A DNA stretch of 34,265 nt from Deltaproteobacteria bacterium (GTDB lineage Bacteria; Myxococcota_A; Polyangia; Polyangiales; B10-G4). Shown here piece by piece: positions 3,545 through 24,194 of this stretch. Numbering within the stretch: the first letter of the stretch is position 1; the number at the start of each line of letters is the position of its first letter. A model generated the notes under the pieces. That model worked only from the letters and a program-made list of their open reading frames with translations. It was not told the DNA's origin and searched no databases. The translations under genes and the position numbers were made by a program. Location: positions 1-34,265 of the forward strand of contig QMMC01000015.1 in NCBI GenBank assembly GCA_003647065.1. The letters run 5' to 3'.

Positions 3545-3979
3545 TCAGTCCCCGAGTAGCTGAATCGCCAGGTCGAGGAAGTCCGTTTCGGTGATGATGC
3601 CGACGAGCTTGTTGTCGGCCTCCACGACCGGCAGACACCCGCGCTTGTGGTCTCGCATGCGGCGTGCGGCTTCGGCGATGGTCGTATCTGGCGACACCGT
3701 ATCGACGTCGCGCTGCATGAGTTGGGCTACGAAGATGTTCTGTTCGAGCTTCGCCTCGAAGGCGGTTCGGGTGGCGCTCGGGTTCAGCGAACTCATCGAG
3801 GCCTTCAGCAGGTCGCGCTGGGTCACCAGGCCGATGAGCTTCTCTCCGTCGACGACCGGGAGATGCCGGAAACCGAATCGCTCGAGGCCGTCTGCCAGAA
3901 GCTCGAGGTTTTCTTCTTCGCGAAGCGTCACGAGCTCGCGGCTCATGATGTCACTGACGAGCCTGGGGGTTTCTGCCAT
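3545..3979 (-). CDS. Two-CBS-domain protein
   Basis: This is a soluble protein of 144 residues made of a CBS (Bateman) pair. The first CBS motif starts at VSDIMSRELVTLREEENL and contains FRHLPVVDGEKLIGLVTQRD. The second starts at VAQLMQRDVDTVSPDTTI and contains CLPVVEADNKLVGIITETD. Such pairs bind adenosine nucleotides (AMP, ATP, sometimes S-adenosylmethionine) and act as energy sensors; stand-alone two-CBS proteins such as Hrp1 occur in hypoxic/dormancy regulons. I chose the ATG at 3979 because a GGAG lies 9 nt upstream. The ATG at 3994, which overlaps the stop of the preceding USP gene by one base, has no ribosome-binding site. It is co-directional with that USP and probably translationally coupled. 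No catalytic domain is attached, so a partner is expected but not visible. Confidence 0.9.
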   Translation of the reverse strand: MAETPRLVSDIMSRELVTLREEENLELLADGLERFGFRHLPVVDGEKLIGLVTQRDLLKASMSSLNPSATRTAFEAKLEQNIFVAQLMQRDVDTVSPDTTIAEAARRMRDHKRGCLPVVEADNKLVGIITETDFLDLAIQLLGD

Positions 3980-3993
3980 GGTCTTGCTCTCCA

Positions 3994-4437
3994 TCAGTCT
4001 GCGACGGGTACCGTGAGGACCGGCACCTTTGCCGTGCGCACGACGCGCTCGGCGACGCTCCCGAGCAACAAGTGCTTGAGCCCGGTGCGTCCGTGGGTGC
4101 CCATCACGATCATGTCGGCGCCTTCTTTGGCAGCGATGCGAGTCACCTCGCTGAAGGGAGTGCCTTCGGTGAGGCGCCCGGTGAGGGTGACGTCGTGCCC
4201 CGAATAACGCCGGAGGAGGTCGTCGAGTTGCTTCTGGAGCTCCGTCGTGAGGCTCGCGACGAACTCGGGTTGGGCCAGGATCGCGCCGTCCGGGAGCGCG
4301 TAGGTTGGCAGTTGGTAGACGTGGACTACGTCTATGGTCGCCCCCACCTTGGACGCGAGATCGATCGCGTAGCGGAGCGCGTGCTCCGAGGTCTCCGAGA
4401 AATCGACCGGACTGAGGATTTTCTTGATCTCTCCCAT
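3994..4437 (-). CDS. Universal stress protein, ATP-binding type
   Basis: This is a single UspA domain of 147 residues. It begins with the family-typical IKKILSPVDFSE and ends with the nucleotide-binding signature GTHGRTGLKHLLLGS (Gly113, Gly116, Gly126, Ser127), which is the G-x2-G-x9-G-S/T form of ATP-binding USPs. Such proteins accumulate on starvation, hypoxia or redox stress; the cytoplasmic target is usually unknown. The ATG at 4437 is preceded by AGGAGAG at good spacing. It is the first gene of a two-gene operon with the CBS protein downstream, and it is transcribed divergently from the tandem USP/sensor-kinase operon. A sigma54-like promoter lies about 110 nt upstream on this strand. 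Confidence 0.93.
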   Translation of the reverse strand: MGEIKKILSPVDFSETSEHALRYAIDLASKVGATIDVVHVYQLPTYALPDGAILAQPEFVASLTTELQKQLDDLLRRYSGHDVTLTGRLTEGTPFSEVTRIAAKEGADMIVMGTHGRTGLKHLLLGSVAERVVRTAKVPVLTVPVAD

Positions 4438-4451
4438 CGTGCTCTCCTGGC

Positions 4452-4463
4452 TTTGCGCGCAAA
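4452..4463. promoter_or_regulatory. 12-bp perfect palindrome in usp leader
   Basis: TTTGCGCGCAAA is an exact palindrome 15 bp upstream of the minus-strand USP start (4437) and downstream of its putative sigma54 promoter. It would therefore lie in the transcribed leader, just before the ribosome-binding site. It could be a regulator site. In DNA this GC-rich, a 12-bp palindrome can also be chance. Confidence 0.3.
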
Positions 4464-4546
4464 TCTTATGTCGCGGCGGGGCGATGGTGACAAAAATGCG
4501 CCTCTTTCGCGAGACACCAAGTCAATCCCATCGATCTTCAGTAGTA

Positions 4547-4562
4547 AGCACGTCTCAGGCCA
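4547..4562 (-). promoter_or_regulatory. Putative sigma54 promoter for usp-CBS operon
   Basis: Read on the minus strand the site is TGGCCTGAGACGTGCT. It has the invariant GG and GC 10 bp apart and matches the -24/-12 consensus TGGCACG-N4-TTGCW at TGGC, G7 and TGCT. It faces the USP gene at 4437 and leaves a leader of roughly 100 nt. An NtrC-type activator is encoded 2 kb away, which makes sigma54 control plausible. Confidence 0.45.
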
Positions 4563-4565
4563 GGG

Positions 4566-4582
4566 TCCACGATGCTCCACGA
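4566..4582. repeat. Direct heptamer repeat between divergent sigma54-like promoters
   Basis: TCCACGA occurs twice (4566-4572 and 4576-4582), 10 bp apart, so both copies face the same side of the helix. The repeat lies exactly between the two divergent -24/-12 candidates. It may be half of an activator-binding site, but this rests on position and periodicity alone. Confidence 0.3.
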
Positions 4583-4585
4583 AGC

Positions 4586-4601
4586 TGGCACGGGGGTAGC
4601 A
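4586..4601 (+). promoter_or_regulatory. Putative sigma54 promoter for tandem-USP/sensor-kinase operon
   Basis: TGGCACGGGGGTAGCA matches the sigma54 consensus TGGCACG-N4-TTGCW at every specified position but one (A for T in the -12 box). The expected start of transcription is near 4612, about 30 nt before the ATG at 4641. This is the best -24/-12 match I found in the window. Confidence 0.55.
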
Positions 4602-4640
4602 GGGCAGGGTAAGGAGTCTCGGACCCAGGGAGACCATGAA

Positions 4641-5609
4641 ATGGAAGAACCTCTGATTCTCTGTGCGACGGATCTCAGCGATGAGGGCGACCGGGCCATC
4701 GATTTGGCCATCGCCGCCACCCGTTCCCTCGGCGGTCGCCTGGCCCTGGTGCACGCCGTCGGGCCGGAGGCTCACGCGGACGACGCGCCAGCGGCGATCT
4801 CTGCCGCGGCCGACACCCTCGAGGATCGCCTGAGCGCTCGGAGAGAACGCGCAGAACGGGGTCTCGAAGCTGCCCGGGCCCGAGTCGAGGGCTCAGGCGT
4901 CGCGGTCACGGCGCGGTTCTTCGAGGGCACGACCCCCGCCGATGCCATCCTGAAAGCTGCCGAGGAGCTCGAGCCCGCGCTCCTGGTCCTCGGCCGCCGT
5001 CACCGAGACACGGGCTTCGTGGGCAAGACGGTCGATCAGATCAGTCGCAAGGGGCCCTGCCCGATGTTCGTCGCCCCCCCCGATGGTGAGGCTCCCCAGT
5101 CTCTCGCCGGAGCCCACTGGGTCGTCGGCGCCGATTTCTCGGACCATGCTCTCGGCGCCATTCGAGCGGCCCGGGCCCTCATCGCGAAGCTCGGCGGCGA
5201 GGTCACCGTCGTCGCCGTGGTTTCACCGAGCGGGGCCGAAGACGTCCCCTACGAAGAACAGACTCCTCAGACGGCGCTCCGGGAGCAGTCCATCCTCGAG
5301 CAAGAGGCCGAGCTCTCGGCCCTCGCGGAAAGAGAGGTTCCGGGCGCGGCGGCCCTCACCGTGCGCTCCATCGACCGGCCGTCGGTCACCCTCGACCGGG
5401 TGGCGTCGGAGCAGGGGGCCGACGCGATCATCGTGGGCACCCACGGCCGGAAGGGGGTGGTTCGTTTCATTCTCGGGAGCACTGCCGAGCGGCTCTTGCG
5501 AATATCGCGGCGTCCGGTCCTGGTCGTGCGGGACTGCCCCATGGTCGGCTCTCCGTTCTACGCGGCGCCGGAGACCGAGGGGCCGGGGGACGCGGGCACG
5601 GATGACTGA
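4641..5609 (+). CDS. Tandem universal stress protein, two UspA domains
   Basis: The protein has 322 residues and two fused UspA domains. Domain 1 (about 3-147) begins LILCATDLSDEG, but its nucleotide-binding loop has degenerated to GRRHRDTGFVG, without G-x2-G-x9-G-S/T. Domain 2 (about 158-298) begins WVVGADFSDHA and keeps the full signature GTHGRKGVVRFILGS. The second half should therefore bind ATP, and the first half is probably structural or regulatory. The ATG at 4641 has a GGGAG 8 nt upstream; longer in-frame starts have no such site. The last 8 nt overlap the sensor-kinase gene, so the two are translationally coupled. That makes the USP a likely accessory or output of the same signalling system. 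The acidic Gly/Pro-rich C-terminal tail is probably disordered. Confidence 0.92.
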   Translation: MEEPLILCATDLSDEGDRAIDLAIAATRSLGGRLALVHAVGPEAHADDAPAAISAAADTLEDRLSARRERAERGLEAARARVEGSGVAVTARFFEGTTPADAILKAAEELEPALLVLGRRHRDTGFVGKTVDQISRKGPCPMFVAPPDGEAPQSLAGAHWVVGADFSDHALGAIRAARALIAKLGGEVTVVAVVSPSGAEDVPYEEQTPQTALREQSILEQEAELSALAEREVPGAAALTVRSIDRPSVTLDRVASEQGADAIIVGTHGRKGVVRFILGSTAERLLRISRRPVLVVRDCPMVGSPFYAAPETEGPGDAGTDD

Positions 5610-6876
5610 CTCGATCCCGAGCGACGCTCCGAATACGGTGCTCTCGGAGGTCATGGCGTACATCGGCTTCGGGGACCGAGATGCGGTGCTCTTGAAGGCG
5701 GCGGGACCGATCCTCCGACCCCATTTTGCGGGGCTCGTCGAGGCGTTCTACGACGCCGTCGAACACAACCCCGGCGCTTCCCGAGCCATCAGCGGGCCCG
5801 CCCAGAGGAAGCGCCTCGAGGTCAGCCTCCTCAACTGGCTCGAAGGTCTCTTTGGCGGGGTCTACGACGATCTCTACCTCGCCCAGCGATCCCGCATCGG
5901 CGAGGTGCACGTACGCATCGGCCTCGAGCAACGCTACATGTTTGCGGCCATGGGGCTCGTCCGGGAGCACTTGATCACGGCCCTCATCGCGTCGTCGATG
6001 GTTGGTGACCAGGAGCGCCAGACTCGCCGAGCGATCAACCGCATTTGCGATATCGAGCTCGCCATCATGCTCGAGTCCTATCGCGATGCTTACACCGACG
6101 GCCTCCGGTCCGAGCGCCAGGCGCTGGCCGAAGACCTCGAGGTCGCCCAGTCCGAGCGCGAGGTACTCATGGTGAAAGCCGCGCGGCACGAAGCGCTGGC
6201 GACCATCGGCACCCTGACCGCGGGCCTCGCCCACGAGGTCCGCAATCCCCTGAACGCCGCGAAGCTCCAGCTCGAGCTCATCGGGCGCGCGTCGAAGAAG
6301 CTTCAGGACAAGGGGCGGTCGGATCGAATCGGTGAACGGGTCAAGATCGTCAACAGCGAGCTGGTCCGGCTCAAAGAGATGCTCGACGACTTCTTGGCCC
6401 TCGCCCGGCAGCGGCGGATGGACCGAGAGGTCGTTCCCGTTCTTCCGCTCTTCGCCGAGGTCCTCGAGCTCGAAGCGCCGGTTGCGGCGGTCGACGGCAT
6501 TCGCCTCGAGATGGCCTGGGAGGGCAGGGGCTCCGAACTCTCCATCAATGCCGACCGGCCGAAGATCAAGCAGGTCCTGATGAACCTCGTGGCCAATGCC
6601 GTCGACGCCATGCGCGGCTTCGAGGGGGGCAGCGTTCATCTCGGCGCCGTCGACGAGGGCGATTGGGTCGCGCTCGAAGTCTGGGACACCGGTCCGGGCA
6701 TCGAGGAGGCGGTCGTGGGGAAGCTCTTCGAGCCCTTCGTCACTACCAAAGAGGCCGGAACGGGCCTCGGTCTGTCGATCGTCAAGCGGATCGTCGAGGC
6801 CCACGGGGGGGAGATCACCGTCGGTGACCGCGATCCTCACGGCACCGTGATGCGCTTCACGCTCCCCAAAGGCTGA
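5602..6876 (+). CDS. Globin-coupled sensor histidine kinase
   Basis: The protein has 424 residues and no membrane segment, so it is a cytoplasmic sensor. Residues about 12-165 form a protoglobin-type sensor domain. IGEVHVRIGL contains the proximal haem ligand candidate His103 in the context typical of globin-coupled sensors, and Tyr50 (EAFYDAV) suits the distal B-helix tyrosine. A short coiled linker (165-195) leads to HisKA with the phospho-acceptor His211 (GLAHEVRNPLN). The HATPase_c domain has the N-box (Asn328, Asn332), DTGPGIEE (362-369) and FEPFVTTKEAGTGLGLS. The best-known relative in design is AfGcHK of Anaeromyxobacter, an oxygen/redox-sensing kinase. The start ATG lies inside the end of the tandem USP gene (8-nt overlap). 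The gene converges on the NtrC-type regulator, 3 bp away, which is the probable cognate partner (inference). Confidence 0.93.
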   Translation: MTDSIPSDAPNTVLSEVMAYIGFGDRDAVLLKAAGPILRPHFAGLVEAFYDAVEHNPGASRAISGPAQRKRLEVSLLNWLEGLFGGVYDDLYLAQRSRIGEVHVRIGLEQRYMFAAMGLVREHLITALIASSMVGDQERQTRRAINRICDIELAIMLESYRDAYTDGLRSERQALAEDLEVAQSEREVLMVKAARHEALATIGTLTAGLAHEVRNPLNAAKLQLELIGRASKKLQDKGRSDRIGERVKIVNSELVRLKEMLDDFLALARQRRMDREVVPVLPLFAEVLELEAPVAAVDGIRLEMAWEGRGSELSINADRPKIKQVLMNLVANAVDAMRGFEGGSVHLGAVDEGDWVALEVWDTGPGIEEAVVGKLFEPFVTTKEAGTGLGLSIVKRIVEAHGGEITVGDRDPHGTVMRFTLPKG

Positions 6877-6879
6877 CGG

Positions 6880-8274
6880 CTACGGGGTTCGGAGCGCGCC
6901 GTCGGCGGCTTGCTCGGCGGTGACGCCCCACTCCTTGAGCCGGTACTGGATCTTGCGTCGGCTGATGCCGAGCATCTCAGCTGCTTCCCGGGTCGAGCCG
7001 CGGGTCGCTTCGAGGGTTTCGGCGATGGCGATTCTCTCGAGGGAAGCGAGCTTCATGCCCGGCACGAAGAACGACTGGTTCCCCGTGGACTGGCGCGCGG
7101 CGTCGAGGGCCGGGAAGTCTTCGATTTCGAGGCGCTCCCCTTCGCTCATGACCACCGCTCGTTCGATGGCGTTTTCGAGCTCCCGGACGTTGCCCGGCCA
7201 GGATTGGGCGACGATGGCTCTGAGGGCCTCGTCGCTGAACCCCGAGAGAGCGCGGTCGTTGTCCTCGGCGTAGTGCTCGAGGAAGTGGTGGGCGAGGACC
7301 GAGATGTCACTCCGGCGCTCGCGCAGCGGGGGGATGTCGATCTGAACTACGTTCAGGCGGTAGTAGAGGTCTTCCCGAAAACCACCCTCTCCGACGAGGG
7401 CTTTGAGGTCTCGGTTCGTCGCCGCGACGACGCGCACGTCGACCTCGATGGTGTCGTTTCCGCCGACGCGCTCGAACTCCTTTTCCTGTAGGAAGCGCAG
7501 CAGCTTGACCTGCACCGACGGTGAGATTTCGCTGACCTCGTCGAGGAAGAGCGTGCCCCCGTGGGCCTGGCTGAAGCGCCCATCGCGGCGGCCGGTAGCA
7601 CCGGTGAAGGCGCCGCGTTCGTGGCCGAAGAGCTCTGACTCGAGGAGGGTCTCGGCGAGGGCCGCACAATTGAGGCGGACGAAGGGCCCATCGCGGCGGC
7701 CCGAGTTGTGGTGGATCGCGGCGGCGATGAGTTCTTTGCCGGTGCCCGATTCACCTTGGACGAGAACGGTCGCGCGACTTTTGGCGACCTGGGCCACCAT
7801 CTTCATCACGCGCTGCATGGAGGGGTGGCCGCCGATGATTCGCCCGTAGGAAAAGCGCTCCTGAAGGGCCTCGCGCAGTTGGGCGGCCTCGCGTTTGAGG
7901 TTTGCGGTCTCGAGGCCGCGGGCCACGAGGGCGCTCAGGGCGTCGAGGTCGAGGGGCTTTTGCAGGTAGTTGTCGGCGCCCTTCTTGATGGCCTCGACCG
8001 CCGTATCGATGGTGCCGAAAGCGGTCATTACGAGAAAGACGGTGCCCGGCGCTACGGGTTTTCCCTGTTCGAGGAGGCCGATGCCGTCGAGGATCGGCAT
8101 CTTGAGATCCGTCACCACGACGTGCGGGTCGAACTCCTCCAGCATGTCGAGGGCCTTCTTGCCATCCGAAGCGGATTCGGTCTCATAGCCTTCGTCTGAG
8201 AGAAGCTCGGCGAGCGCTTCTCGGGCGTTTGCCTCGTCGTCTACGACGAGAACGCGGCCGCAGGGTGCGCTCAT
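6880..8274 (-). CDS. NtrC-family sigma54-dependent response regulator
   Basis: The protein has 464 residues and the full NtrC architecture. The receiver domain (1-120) has acidic pocket Asp12/Asp13, phospho-acceptor Asp56, Thr84 and Lys106. The AAA+ domain (about 143-380) has Walker A GESGTGKE (174-181), an intact sigma54-contacting loop GAFTGA (221-226), Walker B TLFLDE and the arginine-finger region. The C-terminal Fis-type helix-turn-helix is at about 413-447 (STREAAEMLGISRRKIQYRL). The protein should activate sigma54 promoters when phosphorylated. The ATG at 8274 has GGAGG close upstream. It is the last gene of an operon with the sigma factor and the CBS-hemerythrin protein (gap 31 nt). 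The neighbouring globin-coupled kinase is the likely phosphodonor. The sigma54-like sites at 4547-4601 and 9993-10008 are natural targets, but this is inference. Confidence 0.95.
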   Translation of the reverse strand: MSAPCGRVLVVDDEANAREALAELLSDEGYETESASDGKKALDMLEEFDPHVVVTDLKMPILDGIGLLEQGKPVAPGTVFLVMTAFGTIDTAVEAIKKGADNYLQKPLDLDALSALVARGLETANLKREAAQLREALQERFSYGRIIGGHPSMQRVMKMVAQVAKSRATVLVQGESGTGKELIAAAIHHNSGRRDGPFVRLNCAALAETLLESELFGHERGAFTGATGRRDGRFSQAHGGTLFLDEVSEISPSVQVKLLRFLQEKEFERVGGNDTIEVDVRVVAATNRDLKALVGEGGFREDLYYRLNVVQIDIPPLRERRSDISVLAHHFLEHYAEDNDRALSGFSDEALRAIVAQSWPGNVRELENAIERAVVMSEGERLEIEDFPALDAARQSTGNQSFFVPGMKLASLERIAIAETLEATRGSTREAAEMLGISRRKIQYRLKEWGVTAEQAADGALRTP

Positions 8275-8305: not shown

Positions 8306-9154
8306 TTAGCCGCCGAACCCCACATCGATTGGGTCGTCCTTGAGTAGTTGGGGGTTGAGGAGATCACGATCCTCTCTCGACATATCGTCACGGACGTCCC
8401 CGATGAACGTGACAATCCTCTCGGCGAGGGGGGGGCCTTCCACATTATCGAGCTCGGCGAGCTCCGTGGTGAGCTGTTCCCGCTGCTCGGCATGATGGGA
8501 AAGCAGCTGTTCTTCGCGTTCCTTCCCGAAGCCTACGGTCTGGCGGAGGGCAGGGCCCAGGATCTGGTCTTCGACGTCGATGTGTGCCCTGAGGCGCTCG
8601 TAGAGGTCGCGGGTCTCGATGCGCAGCGCGGTGAGCGCGTCCTTTTCGCCCGCGATCACCTGCCGGGCCAGCTCCTCGATCTGGTCGATGATGCTCCGGA
8701 GGACGACGTGCTCTTCGCTGATGCGCCGACGGACAGCGGACGGGCGGAGCGCGCTCGTATCCTGGCCGTCTCGCGTGAGGTGGTCCCAGAGCATGCCGAG
8801 GCAGTCGGTGGTGGTCACGATCCCGACCACGTTGCCTTCGTCCACGACCACGACGCTGCCGTATTTGTGCGTGGCCATCTCCTTGACCACGGTCGCGATT
8901 TCGGTGTCCGAGTTCACAGAGTACGGTGCCGGGCTCATCGCCTCTTCGACGGTAATGGCCTCGAGGCCCACGGACGGCAGGGAACCGACGAGGGCAATGT
9001 CTCGCTCCGAGATGAGCCCTTCGAGTTGGCCACCGCGGAGGGCCGGCAGGTGGCGGATGTGGTGGGCGCGCATGCGCCGCGCGGCCTCGGCGAGGGGCTG
9101 CTCGACACCGATGGAGTACGGCGATGGCGTCATCAGATGTCGAATCTTGGCCAT
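8306..9154 (-). CDS. CBS-CBS-hemerythrin-like fusion protein
   Basis: This is a soluble protein of 282 residues. Residues 1-60 and about 66-125 are CBS domains (IRHLMTPSPYSIGVEQPLAE ... HLPALRGGQLEGLISERD; VEEAMSPAPYSV ... SVVVVDEGNVVGIVTTTD). Residues about 144-270 look like a four-helix HHE/hemerythrin-like domain with EEH (His149), HIDVE (His191, Glu195) and SHH (His220/221). In the last helix the usual H-x3-E is DMSRE, so the expected His is Asp257 while Glu261 remains; iron binding may be altered or lost. The domain pairing suggests coupling of nucleotide status to oxygen or redox sensing. The ATG at 9154 has GAGG 5 nt upstream. The gene lies 7 nt after the sigma factor and 31 nt before the response regulator, clearly in one operon. 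Confidence 0.88.
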   Translation of the reverse strand: MAKIRHLMTPSPYSIGVEQPLAEAARRMRAHHIRHLPALRGGQLEGLISERDIALVGSLPSVGLEAITVEEAMSPAPYSVNSDTEIATVVKEMATHKYGSVVVVDEGNVVGIVTTTDCLGMLWDHLTRDGQDTSALRPSAVRRRISEEHVVLRSIIDQIEELARQVIAGEKDALTALRIETRDLYERLRAHIDVEDQILGPALRQTVGFGKEREEQLLSHHAEQREQLTTELAELDNVEGPPLAERIVTFIGDVRDDMSREDRDLLNPQLLKDDPIDVGFGG

Positions 9155-9161
9155 GAATACC

Positions 9162-9980
9162 TCAAGCGACGCAGGAGAGCAGCGCGCTCCGAAGCTTCAT
9201 TTGGGCACGCTTTTCGATTTGTCGAACCCGCTCTCGGCTCAGGCCGAGGGATTCGCCCAATATGGCCAGAGTTTCGGTGTCTTCGCAGAGGTAACGGCGA
9301 CGCACGATTTCGCGCTCGCGCTCCGACAGAGCTTCGAGGGCAGTCTTGACCTGAGCGCGCTGGTAGTCGCGGAGCTCGAGGGCCGCGGTGAGCTGCTCGG
9401 GGGTGGGCGCTTTGTCCGGGAGCTCGCGGATCGTGCCGTCGTCGAGGGGCCCGACGACACTGTCGCGGCAGCCGAGGGCCGCTTCGACCAGGGCCACGTC
9501 CTCTTCGGGGACCCCGAGGGCTTCGGCGACCTCCGTCCGCGCTGCGCACCGGCCCTCGCGCTGGGCGATGAGCCGCTGGGTCTTGCGCAGGCCCGAGATT
9601 ACCCTCCGGGCGTTGCGCGTGGACGGCGTGCCGACGATCCGCCGGTTGGCAAAGGCGAAGCGGCGCACGTGGGAGCGGACCCACCAGGCGGCGTAGGTGC
9701 CGAAGCGGGTGCCTCGGTCGCTCGAAAAGCGCCGCGCCGCCTCGAGGAGGCCGAGGTTGCCCTCGCTGATGAGATCTTCCATCGACGTGCCCTGGCACGC
9801 GTAGCGCTTCGCCACCGAGAGCACGAGCCTCAGGTGGGCATCGAGGAGGTGCTGAAGCGCGACATTTGACCCGGCCCGAAACTGCTCAATTAGCTCGCGC
9901 TCCTCGTCGGCCCGTAGAAGGGGGGTCTCACGAGCGATTTGCCGGTAGCGCGCGAGGCGGTCGTGTGTATGTCGCTTCAT
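9162..9980 (-). CDS. RpoH-like (sigma-32 type) RNA polymerase sigma factor
   Basis: The protein has 272 residues. It shows region 1.2/2.1 (ARETPLLRADEERELIEQF), 2.1-2.2 (LLDAHLRLVLSVAKRY, MEDLISEGNLGLLEAARRF), 2.3-2.4 (GTRFGTYAAWWVRSHVRRF), an RpoH-box-like stretch after region 2 (SGLRKTQRLIAQREG) and region 4.2 (ILGESLGLSRERVRQIEKRA). The length and the missing region 1.1 place it with sigma-32/heat-shock-type factors, like SigB and SigC of Myxococcus, rather than the housekeeping factor. The ATG at 9980 has only a weak GGGCGG upstream. A sigma54-like promoter ends so close to this start that the message would be almost leaderless. It is the first gene of the operon with the CBS-hemerythrin protein and the NtrC-type regulator, which suggests a cascade from sigma54 to an alternative sigma factor. 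Confidence 0.92.
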   Translation of the reverse strand: MKRHTHDRLARYRQIARETPLLRADEERELIEQFRAGSNVALQHLLDAHLRLVLSVAKRYACQGTSMEDLISEGNLGLLEAARRFSSDRGTRFGTYAAWWVRSHVRRFAFANRRIVGTPSTRNARRVISGLRKTQRLIAQREGRCAARTEVAEALGVPEEDVALVEAALGCRDSVVGPLDDGTIRELPDKAPTPEQLTAALELRDYQRAQVKTALEALSEREREIVRRRYLCEDTETLAILGESLGLSRERVRQIEKRAQMKLRSALLSCVA

Positions 9981-9992
9981 GACCGCCCATAA

Positions 9993-10008
9993 AGCACGGA
10001 CCGGGCCA
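9993..10008 (-). promoter_or_regulatory. Putative sigma54 promoter for sigma factor operon
   Basis: On the minus strand the site is TGGCCCGGTCCGTGCT, followed by TT. It matches TGGCACG-N4-TTGCW except for C5 and G12, with correct GG-to-GC spacing. Its -12 box CGTGCTT is identical to that of the usp promoter at 4547-4562. The predicted transcription start (near 9983) falls a few bases before the ATG at 9980, which is odd and lowers confidence. Confidence 0.45.
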
Positions 10009-10033
10009 GCCCATTTCCCCAACGCTCCCGGGC

Positions 10034-10073
10034 CCCGCGCTAAAATCATGCGTAGATTTTGCGCCGCGGGGCT
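10034..10073. promoter_or_regulatory. Long imperfect inverted repeat, candidate activator site or terminator
   Basis: CCCCGCG (10034-10040) and AAAATC (10042-10047) pair with GATTTT (10055-10060) and CGCGGGG (10065-10071). There is a small asymmetric internal bulge and a 7-bp centre. The element lies 26 bp or more upstream of the -24 box of the sigma-factor promoter and 27 bp after the stop of the beta-CASP gene. It may be an activator-binding site for the NtrC-type regulator, or a terminator-like hairpin. No T-tract follows on the minus strand. Confidence 0.4.
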
Positions 10074-10099
10074 GTCTCAGCGCAAGCGTGGCGCCCGAC

Positions 10100-12058: not shown

Positions 12059-12526
12059 ATGGCTCACCCGAACGCGACCCTGATCGATGGCTTCTACCGT
12101 TCCTTCGCGGAGCGCGATGCGGACGCGATGGCGGCCTGCTACGCGCCGTCCGTACGTTTCTCAGACCCGGTGTTTCCGGGCCTCGAGGGCAAGAAGGCCG
12201 GCGACATGTGGCGCATGCTCTGCAAGGGGGCGACCGATCTGCGCGTCGAGCACCGTGACGTCGTCGCCGACGATGAGACCGGGACGGCGCACTGGGAGGC
12301 CTGGTACTCGTTCAGCGCGACCGGTCGCCCGGTGCACAACGTCATCGAGGCACGTTTTCGCTTCGCCGACGGCCTCATCGTCGAGCACGAGGATACCTTC
12401 AGCTTCGGCCGATGGTCGCGGCAGGCGATTGGAGCGCCGGCCTTGCTGCTCGGTTGGACCGGGCTGATTCAGAAGAAGGTCCGGGCGACCGCGGGCAAGC
12501 AACTCGACCGGTTTTCCTCGCGGTGA
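12059..12526 (+). CDS. NTF2/SnoaL-like domain protein
   Basis: The protein has 155 residues. Residues about 5-115 have the NTF2-like pattern of a helix pair (LIDGFYRSFAERDADAMAAC YAP split) followed by strands with FSDPVFPGLEGKKAG, TAHWEAWYSF and VIEARFRFADGLIVEHEDTF, as in SnoaL-like polyketide-cyclase/limonene-epoxide-hydrolase-fold proteins. Many such stand-alone proteins have no known substrate, and none can be assigned here. The C-terminal tail is basic. There is no Shine-Dalgarno before the ATG, but a CATACT hexamer ends 8 nt upstream, so the message may be leaderless. It diverges from the USP/beta-CASP operon. Confidence 0.85.
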   Translation: MAHPNATLIDGFYRSFAERDADAMAACYAPSVRFSDPVFPGLEGKKAGDMWRMLCKGATDLRVEHRDVVADDETGTAHWEAWYSFSATGRPVHNVIEARFRFADGLIVEHEDTFSFGRWSRQAIGAPALLLGWTGLIQKKVRATAGKQLDRFSSR

Positions 12527-22933: not shown

Positions 22934-24194
22934 ATGTCTTCCGGCCCAGTCATCTCGATGGTCGTCGCCGTGTTCGCGCTGGTGGCGTTCGCCTGCGGTG
23001 ACGACGTAGACGTCGTGACCGATAGTGGTAGCACCGATACCGGGACCGACGGCGGAGGCACCGGGACCCCAATCGACATCCCGTGGCTCGCCGCTGGGGC
23101 GCCTCCCGTCGGTCTGACGCCGTGTCCCGATGGGTGGCGCGAGGTCACGGGAGCCTACGTGACCGAGTGTGATCCATATCCCGAAGCGGGCCCCGAGGCC
23201 TGTGGGCCGGGCGAAGCGCACTTCCCGGGGGAGCCCGGGTGCCGGGCTGTCGGCGCAGCGTGCCCCTCGGGGGACTATGCGACCGTGCTACCGAGTACCG
23301 GCGAGATCATCTACGTGAAGGCGGGGGCGGACCCCGGCGGAGAAGGCTCGCGTTCGTCGCCCTACGGCTCGCTTTCCGAGGTGAGTTGGTTGACGGTCAC
23401 CGCTGGCACGACGGTTGCGCTGGCCAAGGGAACCTACGCGGGCACCCTGCCGCTCCAACCCGGAGCGCAAGTCATCGGAGCGTGTGCCCGGGACACGATC
23501 GTCACTGGCGTCGACGCGCCTGTGCTCGCGGTCGTCACGGTGAACCGCAGTGGTGCTCCGGCGGTGGTTCGAAACTTGTCGATCGCTGACGCTCCTCAGA
23601 TCGGGGCCGTGGTTCGGGTGGGTCGTGAACTCACTCTCGAGGGGGTGATCATCGAAAGGTCGCGCATTGCGGGGCTGGTGGCCGGCGGTTCCGGGGCGGT
23701 GCTGACGCTCGACGACGTCGTCGTTCGCGGTGTTCGGCCAGAAGCCGGCACCGGCGCCCTCGGTCGAACGCTCAGTCCAGGTCGGAGTCGTAGCGTTGGC
23801 TGCGGCGACTATCGAGCTTCGCGATTTCGCGCTCACGACCGTCTCGCATTCGGAGTGCGCTTCCTCGACATGCCCCGACGAGGTGCTGGGGTACGGCGCC
23901 GCTGCCATCTCCGCGACCATGCGTCTCGAGAGGTTTCTCATTCAGAACGCGGCGACCTGCGGGGTCTTCGTGGCCCCCCTCGCCACTTTCGGAGAAGCCG
24001 ATGAGCCAGAGGAGCCTCCGTTCTTGGAGCTCGCTTCGGGGATGGTTTCCGAGGCCGTGATCGGTGCCTGCGTTCAGGTGGACGGATACGATCTGAGTCG
24101 CCTCACCGACGACGTGGCATACAGCGCCACCGGCACAAACCTCGACACCACGATGCTCCCGGTGCCGGGGACGGTGGGCGCGGCGGGTCCCTGA
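22934..24194 (+). pseudogene. Beta-helix-type lipoprotein split by a frameshift
   Basis: The first frame (22934-about 23765) encodes a signal peptide with lipobox VAFAC (Cys21), a Cys-containing head and a right-handed-beta-helix-like domain: IYVKAGADPGGEGSRSSPYG, then stacked VxVxGV-type rungs up to LTLDDVVVRGVRPEAGTG. After that this frame turns into Arg-rich sequence (GRSRSVGCGDYRASRFRAHD), while the +1 frame carries the expected continuation (VQVGVVALAAATIELRDFAL, then MRLERFLIQNAATCGVFV) to the stop at 24194. One extra base (or two missing) near 23755-23790 explains this. Joined, the protein would have about 419 residues. There is no long homopolymer at the site. It may be a real inactivating mutation or an assembly error. 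There is no Shine-Dalgarno; the gene lies 15 nt after the previous one. Confidence 0.8.

Follow-up and report, generated by a model that had tools for sequence, protein, structure and literature searches.

The 34,265-nucleotide stretch analyzed here (the window) belongs to an assembly of 7.08 Mb that is 86% complete. It contains two operons headed by genes for universal stress proteins (USPs), which diverge from a shared intergenic region, and next to them genes for a globin-containing histidine kinase and a sigma54 activator. The genes and features of this island are as follows.

3545 to 3991, minus strand: two-CBS-domain protein, downstream of usp (PF00571, two stretches)
3994 to 4437, minus strand: usp, single-domain universal stress protein, 147 amino acids (PF00582)
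4457 to 4471, no strand: weak NmpR-type box GCGCA-AATCT-TATGT, centre 4464, score 7.7
4487 to 4501, no strand: weak NmpR-type box GTGAC-AAAAA-TGCGC, centre 4494, score 6.3
4547 to 4562, minus strand: weaker sigma54-type promoter TGGCCTGAGACGTGCT of the usp-CBS operon, implied start ~4536, score 10.9
4563 to 4585, no strand: 23-bp spacer with the direct repeat TCCACGA at 4566 and 4576, probably no activator site (chance-level repeat)
4586 to 4601, plus strand: sigma54-type promoter TGGCACGGGGGTAGCA of the tandem-USP/kinase operon, implied start ~4612, score 16.2
4641 to 5609, plus strand: tandem universal stress protein, 322 amino acids (PF00582, two stretches)
5602 to 6876, plus strand: protoglobin histidine kinase, globin plus NmpS-type kinase core (Pfam, PDB 5ohe, H-box, tree)
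6880 to 8274, minus strand: NmpR-type sigma54 activator with receiver, AAA+ domain with GAFTGA, and Fis-type HTH (domains, comparison with AM003)
8306 to 9154, minus strand: CBS-hemerythrin protein, upstream of the activator gene (PF00571, PF01814)
9162 to 9980, minus strand: sigma70-family factor (RpoH/RpoS-like), first gene of the activator operon (profile match)
9993 to 10008, minus strand: sigma54-type site TGGCCCGGTCCGTGCT before the activator operon, implied start ~9982, score 11.7
10050 to 10094, no strand: NmpR-type box pair, centres 10057 and 10087, at -75/-105 of the ~9982 start, pair score 24.7

The genes are arranged as originally predicted, with the tandem-USP and kinase genes on the plus strand and usp and the CBS gene on the minus strand. 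The 203-bp intergenic region at which usp and the tandem-USP gene diverge (4438-4640) holds both sigma54-type elements and the TCCACGA repeat. The tandem-USP start at 4641 matches that of L070, L074, and L078, which align from residue 1; a start at 4572, which would have put the promoter inside the gene, was rejected because relatives support 4641. The kinase gene overlaps the tandem-USP gene and is convergent with the activator gene. We set the starts of the activator and sigma70-factor genes at 8274 and 9980; their longest frames reach 8493 and 10049, respectively. The genome has a single match to rpoN (PF04552, 224 bits). Deleting rpoN in M. xanthus is reportedly lethal (PMC12316311).

Candidate promoters were scored with a rough sigma54 matrix (maximum, 19.1) of approximate base frequencies, and the implied start was placed 11 bases past each 16-mer. 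Both elements were found where they had been predicted, and the 23-bp gap between them is exact. Each has GG at -24, GC at -12, and 10 bases between. Against the full consensus TGGCAC/TTGC, the plus site has TGGCACG with TAGCA and the minus site TGGCCTG with GTGCT; TGGCCTG also opens a site before the globin kinase gene of Myxococcus xanthus AM003. The matrix scan, which had been suggested as a check on both elements, bore out the plus site, whose score is the highest in the window (0.017 equally good sites expected per window from 60 Markov shuffles) and which ends 40 bases ahead of the tandem-USP start codon. The minus site ranks seventh, with 2.9 such sites expected per window in Markov shuffles, and taken alone it is marginal. 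Within the 203-bp intergenic region, the p values are 0.002 for the plus site and 0.018 for the minus site, and a reversed-matrix control peaks at 9.3. The strict pattern TGGCACGNNNNTWGCW has 3 matches in the assembly and its reversed control has 2, so the consensus alone says little genome-wide. Elsewhere in the window, the sigma54-like site TGGCACGACGGTTGCG (23404-23419, score 15.3) lies within a plus-strand frame (22934-24004) and could be a chance match or an intragenic promoter.

Activator orthologues with 59 to 70% identity (E ≤ 1e-165) are encoded in 93 of the 144 genomes of the order, this one included, and often adjoin a kinase of the same kind. Forty regions around related activators or kinases were fetched and mapped. 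Sites scoring 18.3 of 19.1 stand directly before the tandem-USP gene in four genomes of one genus (L076, L078, L101, and L103). A usp orthologue diverges from a tandem-USP or kinase gene in 11 regions from 9 genomes, a set to which the near relatives L072 and L073 contribute two regions each and which omits L091, where 3 kb separate the genes, and pairs whose USPs are more distant (L068, L071, L084, and L099). Fisher p for these regions was 1.6e-7 in the usp-ward direction and 1.3e-11 in the partner-ward direction (9e-7 and 4e-10 without the window); two of the 11 (L070 and L074; 59 bp) have no site. In L071 (2048-2126) and L084 (7783-7968), sigma54-like sites of divergent USP genes face each other, so that their transcripts would overlap.

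Close pairs of sites also recur. Among 41 sequences (639 kb, window included), pairs scoring at least 10.5 with a gap of 5 to 40 bp were back-to-back six times, face-to-face never, and tandem once. The threshold of 10.5 was picked with knowledge of the minus site; the counts are 3, 0, and 1 at 11.5 and 1, 0, and 0 at 12.5. One of the six back-to-back pairs is that of the window; two lie between usp and the kinase gene (L072 and L073), one lies between usp and the tandem-USP gene (L087), one adjoins a USP gene (L080), and one precedes the activator gene (L102). At gaps of 101 to 300 bp and a score of 10.5 the contrast is gone (8 versus 7), and sets B and C (40 and 78 loci) show no such excess, with 1 and 0 back-to-back and 3 and 4 tandem pairs. 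L072 and L073 are 92% alike over the region; their usp-ward sites differ at 1 of 16 positions and their kinase-ward sites at 3 of 16, and the spacer length differs as well. Given that sites exceed chance in both directions and that close back-to-back pairs recur in relatives, the divergent pair is probably real, and the idea that the two USP operons have divergent sigma54 promoters gains support from this comparison. The literature matches listed include no report of abutting sigma54 promoters of this sort.

Only the plus promoter might depend on sigma54, with the minus element a chance match and the usp-CBS operon read by another sigma factor. The frequency expected for the minus score fits such an arrangement, as do the usp-ward maxima below 9.5 in 5 of the 11 comparable regions, the lack of any box-like match above 3 in the region scanned upstream of the minus start, and a terminator-like hairpin in the minus leader. 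This hairpin, with its T run (4498-4517, minus strand), overlaps a weak box and could be an attenuator or a chance feature. We nevertheless consider this alternative unlikely, if still a serious one: usp-ward sites in relatives exceed chance even without the window, five of the six close back-to-back pairs are at USP genes, and a search with the classical consensus found no sigma70-type match in 4400-4700.

The TCCACGA repeat does lie between the two promoters with a period of 10, but the activator site that it had been taken for did not withstand comparison. Exact 7-mer direct repeats occur 8 times in the window at period 10, and the mean over periods 7 to 20 is 9.4 per period. None of the six other close back-to-back pairs has TCCACGA within 30 bp; the 6-mer TCCACG has one copy, on the reverse strand, at L073. 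In addition, the repeat lies 30 to 46 bp upstream of each implied start, which we take to be where the polymerase itself sits. We therefore rejected TCCACGA as an activator site, as it is at chance level, missing at other pairs, and located in a stretch that polymerase itself would cover.

A different motif emerged upstream of the related promoters. The palindrome CGCA-N5-TGCG has 27 exact matches ahead of 22 of 34 island promoters, with 0.45 matches expected; these promoters were chosen by hand on sigma54 score and position, and some share a region or genus and so are not independent. When one mismatch is allowed, a spacer of 5 gives 58 matches and the next-best spacer 30. Box centres in relatives cluster at -105 and -75. 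At sigma54 sites of other regions, outside the motif-finding set, a box is found upstream in 10 of 21 cases (genus as above), 3 of 10, and 16 of 78, compared with 0, 2, and 4 in the mirror interval.

According to the available part of McAllister et al. 2025 (PMC11841059), M. xanthus NmpR binds GCGCA-N5-TGCGC, as seen by EMSA and with lacZ. In five of the seven promoters bound, according to the same part of that paper, paired sites are separated by 14 to 15 bases; promoters with a mismatch in each site were not bound. The sigma54 promoters targeted there include those of hemN, nmpU, a USP gene, and an operon that is led by a CBS gene and contains nmpR, and one of the targets goes up in hypoxia. 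The window activator is 53% identical to the nmp-locus protein of M. xanthus AM003, and its recognition helix is nearly the same. In the helix comparison, the L070 row, which is out of frame, was disregarded. Judged by sequence, the window activator is the NmpR orthologue and the motif found in the relatives is the NmpR box. As a positive control, the USP and hemN-like promoters of AM003 (named from frames) have boxes at about -95/-65, and its globin kinase gene has boxes and a sigma54 site upstream. At the AM003 nmpU promoter we found boxes 50 bp apart, whereas the available text of PMC11841059 gives 24 bases between; one site may differ.

Simple pattern searches were less discriminating. Core box pairs showed no excess over controls in the window's own genome (7 places versus 9) or in AM003 (10 versus 9), where 3 of the 10 places have a sigma54 site of at least 10 with a box pair upstream. 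An exact composite of box and sigma54 site had 0 matches in the window's own genome and 5 for the control; a narrower composite matched in 79 of 144 genomes, and its controls matched too. Two further observations concern box-like sequences elsewhere. G049 and G094 contain many copies of a stretch that starts CGCACCCGCTGCGC and continues with a further box-like sequence and a TGGC...TGC element; these copies may form a big separate sigma54 regulon in that genus. In L256 (1499-1544; G000:C43:7448-7489), divergent cytochrome-like frames, one of them followed by a cytochrome oxidase subunit II-like frame (read from frames), flank an NmpR-type box pair whose members score 18.3 and 9.8 and are 31 bp apart, with no sigma54 site of at least 8 nearby.

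Within the window, the best boxes precede the activator operon. No pair as high as 10057/10087 arose in 100 shuffles; the two boxes, each with one mismatch, are 30 bp apart. This promoter (9993-10094) follows the NmpR promoter rule, having two boxes and a sigma54 site at a fitting distance, which suggests that the activator operon is self-regulated, as in M. xanthus. Its implied start lies just 2 bases before the first start codon, which speaks against this; the matching leader in L070 and L074 is about 35 to 40 bases.

The pair at 4464/4494 in the usp leader is weaker. It has the family spacing of 30 bp centre to centre and a score of 14.0 (0.11 such pairs expected per window). Each box has one good and one poor half, and both break the GCA-N5-TGC core, so that the region 4438-4640 shows the spacing of an NmpR promoter but not the box, perfect or one-off, that the rule asks for. 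The pair lies at -148/-118 of the plus start, off the usual box distance, and at +72/+42, that is, downstream, of the minus start. A comparable pair at 12218/12237 scores 15.5 with centres 19 bp apart. Because M. xanthus promoters with such sites were not bound, activator binding at 4464/4494 is uncertain. The boxes closest to the promoters are mostly on the usp side in the window and in L072, L073, L085, and L095; L087 and L079 have their good boxes within the tandem-USP gene.

The degenerate boxes leave room for both promoters being sigma54 dependent and fired by another NtrC-type activator, and a first search of the genome for relatives of the adjacent protein gave 137 candidate places, of which 11 were scored. 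We think this rather improbable: the pair with the family spacing falls in the same island as the good pair, the same-gene regions of L072, L073, L085, and L087 have good boxes nearby, and NmpR of M. xanthus targets promoters of the USP, nmpU, and CBS-led kinds (available part of PMC11841059). A third possibility, that GC-rich intergenic DNA produced both matches by chance and that there is no promoter at either, is very improbable, even with a strict-pattern count close to its control and a 15.3 site inside a coding frame at 23404, as the plus site ends 40 bases before a start codon and such sites recur in relatives.

The kinase combines protoglobin, HisKA, and HATPase domains in one frame, and its gene is the only protoglobin gene found in the assembly. 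Residues 9-162 match the globin domain of AfGcHK from Anaeromyxobacter (PDB 5ohe; E 1e-30), and H103, presumably the haem ligand, is conserved in all 10 kinases aligned. No separate NmpS or NmpT gene was found in the window, and the four-component NmpU/NmpT/NmpS set does not occur there; a distant NmpS may lie elsewhere in the 86% complete assembly, where 12 of 62 candidates were scored. In a tree of 55 kinase cores, with three rows dropped beforehand, a single clade (100/100) unites all 20 NmpU-type cores, and the window core falls on the NmpS-type side; 2 of the 13 globin-plus-NmpS rows in this tree (L091 and L095) are ordinary NmpS proteins mislabelled via an open upstream frame, L095 having the usual order receiver-PAS-kinase. 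The window H-box, AGLAHEVRNPLNAAKLQLEL, is as in NmpS proteins, and the NmpU type is SIGHELRNPLAV. At L087 (8948-10564), a single frame runs from a protoglobin through a middle stretch to an NmpS-type kinase and may represent a form intermediate between NmpS and the window kinase; the middle stretch is PAS-like by eye and matches no Pfam PAS model.

In the available part of Bretl et al. 2018 (PMC6211767), the NmpS and NmpT receivers, and not NmpR, are the substrates of NmpU, and NmpS phosphorylates NmpR only. The model given there has oxygen turn the globin kinase on, so that NmpS and NmpR are kept off and the two kinases are in opposite states. The words fusion and fused are absent from the text of that paper. 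In the window, the globin would act directly on the kinase that drives NmpR, and the fused kinase could represent a shortened Nmp pathway. Since the known globin kinase is switched on by oxygen and keeps NmpS and NmpR off, the oxygen response of the fused form could take either sign. A more elaborate version is a direct Nmp form in which the globin sits on an NmpS-type kinase in the receiver's place, its effect is inverted or the genes are on in air, and one box cluster in the usp leader serves two sigma54 promoters, close enough for their polymerases perhaps to exclude each other, as a one-or-other switch; we regard this version as doubtful.

Overall, we favour, with moderate confidence, a reading of 4438-4640 as a divergent sigma54 promoter pair in an NmpR-type oxygen regulon whose activator and globin kinase are encoded alongside. 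Sites, box motif and spacing, gene families, and recurrence in relatives are computed features of the DNA. In this model, sigma54 polymerase would wait at 4586-4601 for the tandem-USP and globin kinase genes and more weakly at 4547-4562 for usp and the CBS gene. The globin kinase would sense oxygen and phosphorylate the adjacent NmpR-type activator, which would bind GCGCA-N5-TGCGC at the good pair before its own operon and at the degenerate pair in the usp leader. From 4464/4494 it would open the plus promoter in the customary manner, from an upstream position; if the minus promoter is opened too, the activator would act from downstream of its start. What we infer is that the promoters depend on sigma54, that the activator binds the weak boxes and can work from downstream, and that oxygen is the signal. 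The earlier proposal that one NtrC-type activator controls both promoters is plausible, and control is probably exerted by oxygen through a variant of the published system.

In nif-type regions, divergent sigma54 promoters share activator sites. The window likewise has two divergent sigma54-type promoters near candidate activator sites, but here only 23 bp separate the elements, and the box-like sequences fall outside the pair, on one side. The DosR hypoxia regulon of mycobacteria also joins haem sensor kinases and USP genes, as this island does, although DosR is not known to be a sigma54 activator. A link between DosR and USPs is mentioned in the available part of PMC11841059. The closest likeness is to NmpRSTU of M. 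xanthus, which, in the available parts of PMC11841059 and PMC6211767, has a protoglobin kinase, an NtrC-type NmpR orthologous to the window activator, sigma54 promoters, boxes paired about 30 bp centre to centre, and targets that include a USP gene, the CBS-led operon with nmpR, and nmpU. Unlike NmpRSTU, the window has its globin fused to an NmpS-type core in place of separate NmpS and NmpT genes, and its two USP operons diverge from abutting sigma54 sites with weak boxes. The window kinase shares the globin domain of AfGcHK, which the available part of PMC6211767 describes as an NmpU homologue, whereas its core groups with those of NmpS.

The NmpR box and the geometry of its promoters, previously studied in one species, are here traced in many genomes of another order, and such regulons thereby become readable from sequence. 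The fused kinase offers a natural test of how a signalling chain keeps or flips its sign when a kinase in its middle drops out. How far looping activation depends on side and spacing could be tested on abutting sigma54 promoters whose boxes lie to one side and, for one of the starts, downstream.
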